The notes under the pieces are model-generated. The model ran no database searches and was not told the DNA's origin. It saw only the letters and a program-made list of their open reading frames with translations. From Eggerthella lenta DSM 2243 (lineage in GTDB: Bacteria > Actinomycetota > Coriobacteriia > Coriobacteriales > Eggerthellaceae), in NCBI RefSeq assembly GCF_000024265.1, contig NC_013204.1, positions 2,856,501-2,920,500 on the forward strand: DNA of 64,000 nt, read 5' to 3'. Of the stretch, positions 13,321-52,503 are shown piece after piece. Positions within the stretch are counted from its first letter, which is position 1, and each line of letters starts with the position of its first letter. The position numbers and the translations under genes are program-made.

Positions 13321-13334
13321 CCCCCCCCCCCCCC
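13321..13334 (-). repeat. Homopolymer tract of 14 C (14 G on the EPS-coding strand)
   Basis: An uninterrupted run of 14 C on the plus strand, 144 bases upstream of the LCP start. Tracts of this length are prone to slipped-strand length changes. On the minus strand it follows TTGACG plus 19 bases and precedes the TATTAT hexamer by about 45 bases, so which promoter element it would affect is unclear. Confidence 0.85.
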
Positions 13335-50457: not shown

Positions 50458-51291
50458 CTATTCATGCGCCCTGCGCAGCGCGGCGATCTCTTCGGCGTAG
50501 CCTGCGAGATCCGGGTTGGGGGTCTCCAGGTAGAACGGCAGGTCGCGCAGCTTCGGATGGTTCGTCACGGCGGCCAGGGCTTTGAAGCCGATCTCGCCTT
50601 CGCCGATGCGGGCATGGCGGTCCTTATGCGAACCGCGGGCATTCATGCTGTCGTTGAGGTGGATGGCATGCAAACGGTCGAGCCCGATCACACGGTCGAA
50701 CTCCTCCAGCACGCCGTCGAGGTCGCCCACGATGTCGTAGCCCGCGTCCCACACGTGGCACGTGTCCAGACACACGCCCACGTGGCTCTCCAGCTCCACC
50801 TGCGCGATGATGGCCGCCAGCTCCTCGAACGTGCCGCCGATCTCGCTGCCTTTCCCCGCCATCGTCTCCAATAGCAACGTGGTGGTCTGATGCGGCAGCA
50901 GGCTCTGGTTCAGCGCGTCGGCGATCTTGGCGATGGCAACCTCGCACGGCTGGCCGACAGCGCTGCCGGGATGCATGTTGTACAGCTGATGCGGCGTCTC
51001 CTCCATACGGCCGAGGCCCTCGGCCAGCACCATGAGCGCGAAATCGCGCGTCTGCTGCTTGTCGGAGGCGGGGTTCAGCGTGTAAGGCGCGTGCGCCAGG
51101 ATGCGCTCGATGCCATGCTCGGGCGCATAGGCGGCAAAGGCCGCGATGTCTTTCGGGTCGATGGCCTTCGCACGGCCGCCGCGCGGGTTGCGCGTGAAGA
51201 ACTGGAACGTGTTGGCGTCGATGGACACGGCGTCCTTCGCCATGTGGAGATAGCCCTTCGCGCTTGAGAGGTGGCAGCCGATGGTGAACAT
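50458..51291 (-). CDS. nfo: Deoxyribonuclease IV (AP endonuclease)
   Basis: 277 residues, TIM-barrel endonuclease IV. Metal and active-site segments: 'IGCHLSSAKGYLHMA', 'ILAHAPYTLNPAS', 'LLLETMAGKGSEIGGTFEEL', 'GVCLDTCHVWDAGYDI', 'HAIHLNDSMNARGSHKDRHA' and 'GEGEIGFKAL'. It cuts at abasic sites in base-excision repair using three zinc ions. An AAAGGATG site precedes ATG 51291. A copy of its start region, including the first seven codons, stands 132 bases upstream. Confidence 0.95.
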   Translation of the reverse strand: MFTIGCHLSSAKGYLHMAKDAVSIDANTFQFFTRNPRGGRAKAIDPKDIAAFAAYAPEHGIERILAHAPYTLNPASDKQQTRDFALMVLAEGLGRMEETPHQLYNMHPGSAVGQPCEVAIAKIADALNQSLLPHQTTTLLLETMAGKGSEIGGTFEELAAIIAQVELESHVGVCLDTCHVWDAGYDIVGDLDGVLEEFDRVIGLDRLHAIHLNDSMNARGSHKDRHARIGEGEIGFKALAAVTNHPKLRDLPFYLETPNPDLAGYAEEIAALRRAHE

Positions 51292-51651
51292 GCCCGCATC
51301 CTTTCCGATGGTTTAATCGTGACGCACATAGTAGCATATAGGAGCGCCGGACCGAACGGCTCGTGTGCAATGTCGCAGGTTCTACGCGTTCGCGCGAGCC
51401 CGGTGGCATCCGATGGTGAACATGTGGCGAGATCCTTCCGATCAGGGAGCTTTCCCGCCATCGTAGCGCCCGGCCGTCGCCGCGCGGCACCGGCGAGCGC
51501 CGCTGAACCCACTTGTTGGAAGGCCGTTGAAGAACCGTGCAGCCGAGCGCAATCCGACCGAGCGGCGGCGAAGCGGCCGTACGGTCTGCGATAGTGTCGG
51601 TCGTCTGCAAGGTTCGCCCGACGCGCGCGGCAAGCCGCCGAAAACCCCGCG
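51292..51651. other. Region upstream of nfo carrying a duplicated nfo start
   Basis: No complete gene. Positions 51403-51423 read ATGTTCACCATCGGATGCCAC on the minus strand (given in part), one base different from the true nfo start at 51271-51291, and the ribosome-site regions match too (ATCGGAAAGGAT versus ATCGGAAGGAT). The copy would encode only MFTIGCHRARANA before a stop. The rest holds no recognisable feature up to the SdpI promoter. Confidence 0.7.
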
Positions 51652-51684
51652 TTGACGCCCCCCCCCCCCCGGACGATCTATACT
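51652..51684 (+). promoter_or_regulatory. Putative phase-variable promoter of the sdpI-like gene
   Basis: TTGACG (51652-51657) and TATACT (51679-51684) are separated by 21 bases, 13 of which are an unbroken C run (51658-51670) followed by GGACGATC. Optimal sigma-70 spacing is about 17, so loss of four C would give a consensus-like spacer. This is the known architecture of promoters that switch by slipped-strand mispairing. The start codon lies 47 bases downstream. Confidence 0.75.
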
Positions 51685-51731
51685 GGAAGGCGAGAGAGCC
51701 GCTGAAAGGGAGCGAACCGAAAGGACGCATC

Positions 51732-52382
51732 ATGAAGAAGGGCTACATCGCCGTCGGCGTTCTGTTCGCTATCGACGTCGCCGTTACGGCGGCGTTCGTG
51801 GCGATCATGCCCGACCAGGTGCCGGTCCATTTCACGGGCGGCGAGATCGACCGCATCGGCAGCAGGTTCGAAAGCTTCACCGCGCCCGCTCTCGCGCTTG
51901 CGTTCGGCCTGTTCATGATGTTGCTTACGAGGTTCGGCGACGAAGGCAACCGCGCAACCATGATGAAGCTGACCGTCGGCATGCAGGCGATCTTCATCGC
52001 CGTGACGGTGTTCGCATCCCTGAACATCCTGTCGCACGACGTTTCGGATATCTCCCTCGGCGCTCCCGACGCCGGCATGTCGAAGATCGCCGCTTTCGTC
52101 ATCGGCGCCACGCTGCTGTTCCTCGGCTACCTCATGCCCAAAGCGACCCGCAACTCGGCCTTCGGCGTTCGCCTGCCGTGGACCCAGAAAAGCGATGCCG
52201 CGTGGCAGAAAGGCCAGCGCTTCGGCGCGCGCACGTCCATCCCCGCCGGCATCCTCATGATCGTCTGCGGCATCCTCTTCGACGGCGATCTCGCATTCGC
52301 CGCCACCATGGTCGTCTTTGCAGCCTGGGCGCTCATCAGCATCATCGGCTCGTACTTCGCGTGCAAGGACATCGATGCCTGA
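51732..52382 (+). CDS. SdpI family membrane protein (DUF1648 plus SdpI domains)
   Basis: 216 residues with about six membrane helices. Residues 8-55 are DUF1648-like ('IMPDQVPVHFTGGEIDRI'), and the C-terminal part is SdpI-like: 'LLFLGYLMPKATRNSAFGVR', 'LPWTQKSDAAWQKGQRFGAR'. In Bacillus, SdpI gives immunity to the SdpC toxin and passes a signal to its repressor; whether this homologue protects against a toxin is unknown. ATG 51732 has an AAAGGA site. It is transcribed alone from the C-tract promoter. No SdpC-like gene or ArsR-type repressor is adjacent. Confidence 0.88.
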   Translation: MKKGYIAVGVLFAIDVAVTAAFVAIMPDQVPVHFTGGEIDRIGSRFESFTAPALALAFGLFMMLLTRFGDEGNRATMMKLTVGMQAIFIAVTVFASLNILSHDVSDISLGAPDAGMSKIAAFVIGATLLFLGYLMPKATRNSAFGVRLPWTQKSDAAWQKGQRFGARTSIPAGILMIVCGILFDGDLAFAATMVVFAAWALISIIGSYFACKDIDA

Positions 52383-52483: not shown

Positions 52484-52503
52484 GGCGGAGGTTTTTCTCC
52501 GCC
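52484..52503 (+). terminator. Hairpin after the sdpI-like gene
   Basis: GGCGGAG (52484-52490) and CTCCGCC (52497-52503) with a GTTTTT loop. It lies 100 bases after the sdpI-like stop and before the convergent ecfT gene. The T run is in the loop, not after it, so termination efficiency is uncertain. Confidence 0.45.

Follow-up and report, generated by a model that had tools for sequence, protein, structure and literature searches.

Does the run of 13 cytosines in front of an SdpI-like gene of Eggerthella lenta DSM 2243 work as a genetic switch? Most known phase-variable promoters of the porA/opc/fetA design belong to surface antigens of Gram-negative pathogens, and an original prediction, made from the letters of the DNA, had proposed such a promoter for this gut actinobacterium. 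We find that a phase-variable promoter of this kind, set by slippage, is the best explanation of the locus, and we put its probability at about 0.72.

Architecture of the promoter and its gene

The window, meaning the whole stretch of DNA that was analysed, is 64,000 nucleotides long and belongs to an E. lenta genome assembled as a single contig of 3,632,260 bases. The promoter, its gene and the upstream remnant described below lie on the + strand. The −35 hexamer TTGACG (51652..51657) and the C13 tract that abuts it (51658..51670), presumed to be slippage-prone, were read directly; they are followed by a non-repeat part of the spacer, GGACGATC (51671..51678), and by the −10 hexamer TATACT (51679..51684). 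The original prediction had described these two hexamers, the 21-base spacer between them and the 13 C within it, and both coordinates and letters are exactly as it claimed. Sigma-70-type RNA polymerase works best with about 17 bases between the hexamers. The loss of four C, leaving 9, would bring the spacer to 17, and this part of the earlier arithmetic also holds. Transcription is predicted to start at 51690..51692, from the distance to the −10, and a probable ribosome-binding site, AAAGGA (51720..51725, read directly), ends six bases 5′ of the ATG, which is at 51732 and 47 bases past the −10. A simple scan of 51280-51760 found no second promoter-like site. The gene (51732..52382) lies between two others, one for deoxyribonuclease IV, which is divergent, and one for a cobalt-type (ECF) transporter (CbiQ), which is convergent. 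On its 3′ side, a hairpin-like sequence, GGCGGAGGTTTTTCTCCGCC, was seen by eye at window 52484-52503.

The gene encodes a protein of 216 aa with DUF1648 and SdpI domains (Pfam PF13630, E 4.9e-16; PF07853, E 2.2e-10), which score 59.1 and 40.4 bits against curated cut-offs of 28.2 and 28.7; the SdpI-like identity first assigned to it is thereby borne out. Strong hydrophobic segments run along the 216 aa by simple hydropathy, and a search by sequence found no solved structure of a relative. In Bacillus subtilis, SdpI has two roles, in protection from the SDP toxin and in binding of the repressor SdpR (PMC6818787, PMC11995493). Because SdpI is the sole characterised member of its family, and may stand for a small part of the possible functions (PMC11995493), the immunity role that family membership suggests for the tract-bearing protein is a lead and not a result. 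We found no SdpC toxin (TIGR04032) in the four Eggerthella genomes, with the B. subtilis control giving the expected match, so if the protein protects at all, the toxin would be foreign or unrelated to SdpC.

Conservation of the promoter in relatives

We compared the locus among the members of a clade, with one genome per species: E. lenta (G000, the window genome), E. sinensis (G002), two other Eggerthella species (G001 and G003) and one Gordonibacter MAG (G043). The same promoter architecture stands upstream of the SdpI-like gene in all five (5/5), with TTGAC and TA(T/C)ACTGG common to every promoter. The tract varies in length between species within an otherwise retained promoter: given that homopolymer lengths in assemblies are error-prone and exact tract lengths are thus unsure, there are 13 C in E. 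lenta, 18 in G001, 11 in G003, 12 in E. sinensis and 9 in the Gordonibacter MAG, this last tract being counted after TTGAC and leaving 8 C inside the spacer if the hexamer is TTGACC. From the end of the tract to the −10 there are eight bases in each of the four Eggerthella species and seven in the MAG, with differing letters. The resulting spacers measure 21 (E. lenta), 26 (G001), 19 (G003), 20 (E. sinensis) and 15 bases (G043); a spacer of 16-18 occurs in 0/5 alleles, and that of G001 is nine bases off the optimum. The five SdpI-like proteins form one branch (support 95/94), and the common descent of the genes means that the five promoters do not count as independent events.

The sequence upstream of the promoter has changed within the clade. 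G001 and E. sinensis both have an ABC-2 permease gene whose end lies just 5′ of the promoter. The E. lenta upstream region aligns by blastn with those of G003 and G001 (75% identity over 100 bases, E 3e-13, the alignment including the promoter), and from this alignment E. lenta probably retains only the decayed 3′ end of the permease gene (51594..51649), so that the promoter would have been kept while its neighbour was lost. A mobile origin was considered and rejected, as there was no match among plasmids or viral contigs with tools that may omit near records.

The other SdpI homologues of the family were examined for similar tracts. A run of C or G longer than 5 within 300 bases upstream was found in 0/9 of them, and in most of those whose upstream region was read, an ArsR-type gene ends at the start of sdpI. 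E. lenta itself carries a paralogue (G000:1553601) that adjoins a Pfam-confirmed ArsR-type repressor gene. The tract-bearing gene has no adjacent ArsR-type repressor, its neighbours being the deoxyribonuclease IV and CbiQ genes. The tract is therefore confined to the branch without an adjacent repressor.

Frequency of the motif across the class

To place the tract in its genomic background, we carried out a genome-wide census based on pattern searches. Runs of at least 12 C number 12 in the E. lenta genome, counting both strands, whereas the CC frequency of the window would predict about 0.5. The pattern TTGACN-C9 occurs at one place per genome in the four Eggerthella species, always upstream of the sdpI-like gene, and at three more places in 138 genomes of the family, two of them in the Gordonibacter MAG and one elsewhere. 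These three places, at L064, L069 and L070, were set aside, with no fitting −10 in front of a gene. We then searched 398 genomes of the class with a composite motif, TTGACN-C7-N(2-22)-TAYACT, which gave 6 matches, 5 of them the sdpI promoter, against 0 for the reversed control. A looser motif found the sdpI-like gene alone in each Eggerthella genome, apart from one extra place in E. lenta, and had 2 control matches. With a single TTGACN-C9 place per Eggerthella genome and no match of the composite motif in the reversed control, a chance motif was rejected, and by these counts the sdpI tract promoter is not a product of chance.

The sixth match to the composite motif lies in another genus of the family (L076 1500-1530), before an ABC-transporter operon, and reads TTGACC-C8-TTCGCTGT-TATACT with a spacer of 15. 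It is possibly a second, independent promoter of the same design.

Alternative explanations

The promoter may be real and its tract a fixed or slowly evolving element, belonging to a poorly spaced promoter that needs an activator or a special DNA shape and tolerates drift in length. DNA of poly-dC/poly-dG can take an A-like form that is shorter per base, and the alleles all lie off 17 (15-26), as if 17 were neither needed nor favoured; the genus also conserves a C tract that lies outside a recognised spacer. However, long uninterrupted runs of C mutate readily, and without selection for their upkeep one would expect substitutions to break them up; this run stayed pure although the sequence 3′ of it changed. 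It also abuts the −35 exactly, and the remainder of the spacer stays at eight bases. We regard a fixed element as unlikely, though it should be kept in view.

Slippage might instead have driven the neutral growth of a C-rich spacer in a high-GC genome, with expression unaffected. This would be in keeping with the 12 long C tracts of the genome, but it accounts poorly for a unique place that is kept in 5/5 clade members versus 0/9 other homologues, and for a motif that is nearly absent elsewhere in the 398 genomes; we consider neutral growth quite improbable.

We give almost no credence to a translational switch, in which the tract would lie within the coding region of a longer protein starting at a GTG (51537) and slippage would shift the frame. 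In E. lenta no stop interrupts the frame between 51537 and 52382, tract included, but this reading was rejected on the relatives, whose frames do not run through the tract: those of G003 and E. sinensis close just 5′ of the ATG (open frames of 223 and 220 aa), and the upstream ABC gene of G001 has its stop before the tract. Moreover, protein similarity begins at the ATG, and it is the −35 and −10 that are conserved instead. An assembly error, or the chance pairing of a homopolymer with promoter-like hexamers, is hardly believable, for although homopolymer lengths are error-prone and simple hexamers do arise by chance, the architecture is present in five genomes with 0 control matches in 398, which refutes this reading for the architecture.

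Proposed switch and its expected states

In the slippage-set promoter that we favour, poly-C fills most of the spacer of a sigma-70-type promoter. Slipped-strand mispairing at replication would add or remove C and so shift the distance between −35 and −10, and this change in distance would switch or grade transcription of the single SdpI-like membrane protein gene. Expressing and non-expressing cells would then be mixed within a clonal population, with ON cells possibly protected from a membrane-acting toxin or antibiotic. The earlier claim of a phase-variable promoter thus stands for what could be read: the kept hexamers, a tract length that changes between species, a gene of the SdpI family and the porA/opc/fetA design. 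Switching at the level of the population, an effect on transcription and tolerance are what we infer from these.

The sequenced E. lenta allele is expected to be off or weak, because TATACT has no TG one base before it and, at C13, only the C run lies 17 bases upstream of the −10. That the ON state has 9 C is a guess, since no sequenced allele sits at the assumed optimum of 17 (15, 19, 20, 21, 26). Either cultured strains rest OFF, or the optimum is not 17 with such DNA, or length is irrelevant. The switch hypothesis can be put to a direct test, since E. lenta DSM 2243 has shuttle vectors and a lacZ reporter (PMC9734109).

If the promoter does switch, sister cells of this common human gut species would vary randomly in how sensitive they are to a toxin or antibiotic. 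A further proposal, which we offer tentatively and think somewhat doubtful, is that slippage would maintain a standing minority of cells with the immunity-like protein, as a genetic hedging of tolerance to a neighbour's toxin or antibiotic, parallel to the regulator-controlled ArsR-sdpI pair in the same genome.

Comparison with known systems

In Neisseria, the unstable homopolymers between −10 and −35 of porA, fetA and opc are thought to alter sigma-factor binding via spacer length (PMC2791445). The E. lenta promoter matches this design, as originally proposed, in having a homopolymer of at least 8 flanked by −35 and −10 hexamers. It differs in belonging to an actinobacterium of the Coriobacteriia, in driving a gene for an SdpI-family membrane protein and not a surface antigen, and in that we infer the switching from sequence.

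The B. subtilis sdpRI operon, which shares the SdpI protein family, is expressed in only part of the population through Spo0A bistability (PMC6818787). In contrast, the Eggerthella gene has no adjacent SdpR-like repressor and the genus no SdpC relative, and heterogeneity in Eggerthella would come from genetic slippage, not from a regulatory circuit. Separate ArsR-sdpI pairs without a tract are also kept in Eggerthella.

Two other systems bear comparison. In Gardnerella, which is also an actinobacterium, homopolymer tracts of at least 8 are abundant and one varies between colonies (PMC11287997); the tested tract is tied to a GA-module protein, and the part of the report considered here holds no spacer-tract promoter of an immunity-like gene (PMC11287997). 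The capsule inversions of E. lenta provide reversible genetic heterogeneity in the same species (PMC13174815), but these are megabase inversions and not homopolymer slippage, and homopolymer or poly-C is not mentioned in their description (PMC13174815).

Our searches of the open-access literature turned up no account of promoters switched by poly-C in Eggerthella or Coriobacteriia, nor of an SdpI gene under phase variation, which agrees with the earlier remark that no description was known. The switch design is known, and the lineage and the kind of target are new as far as the open-access literature was searched. Two genera of gut actinobacteria have retained the design, on a gene whose family serves in immunity and signalling.

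Other C tracts in Eggerthella

The sdpI tract seems not to be the only long C tract that Eggerthella keeps. In the window, a C14 tract (13321-13334) precedes a DEAD-box RNA helicase gene by about 210 bases, outside a recognised promoter spacer, and tracts of C13, C14 and C16 stand at the matching place in three other Eggerthella species; the bases on its 3′ side, GAGTTTTTTCGTTTTCCCACGTCAA, are almost unchanged across the Eggerthella species. Because this tract is also kept, outside a recognised promoter spacer, a conserved C tract is not in itself proof of a promoter switch. Among the E. lenta tracts of at least 12 that were read, the sdpI tract alone is set in a clean promoter.

The further long C tracts, at least one of them retained at the same place, raise the possibility that slippage sets other genes as well. 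A CheR-type methyltransferase gene of E. lenta has a C15 tract shortly upstream (G000:C1:3092016-3092030), and its CheR-type relative in E. sinensis is split in two frames at an intragenic C9 tract (L115 1889-1897). Finally, by eye, the C tracts at L028 (~1501-1512) and L004 (~1501-1510) appear to lie in the loop of an inverted repeat.
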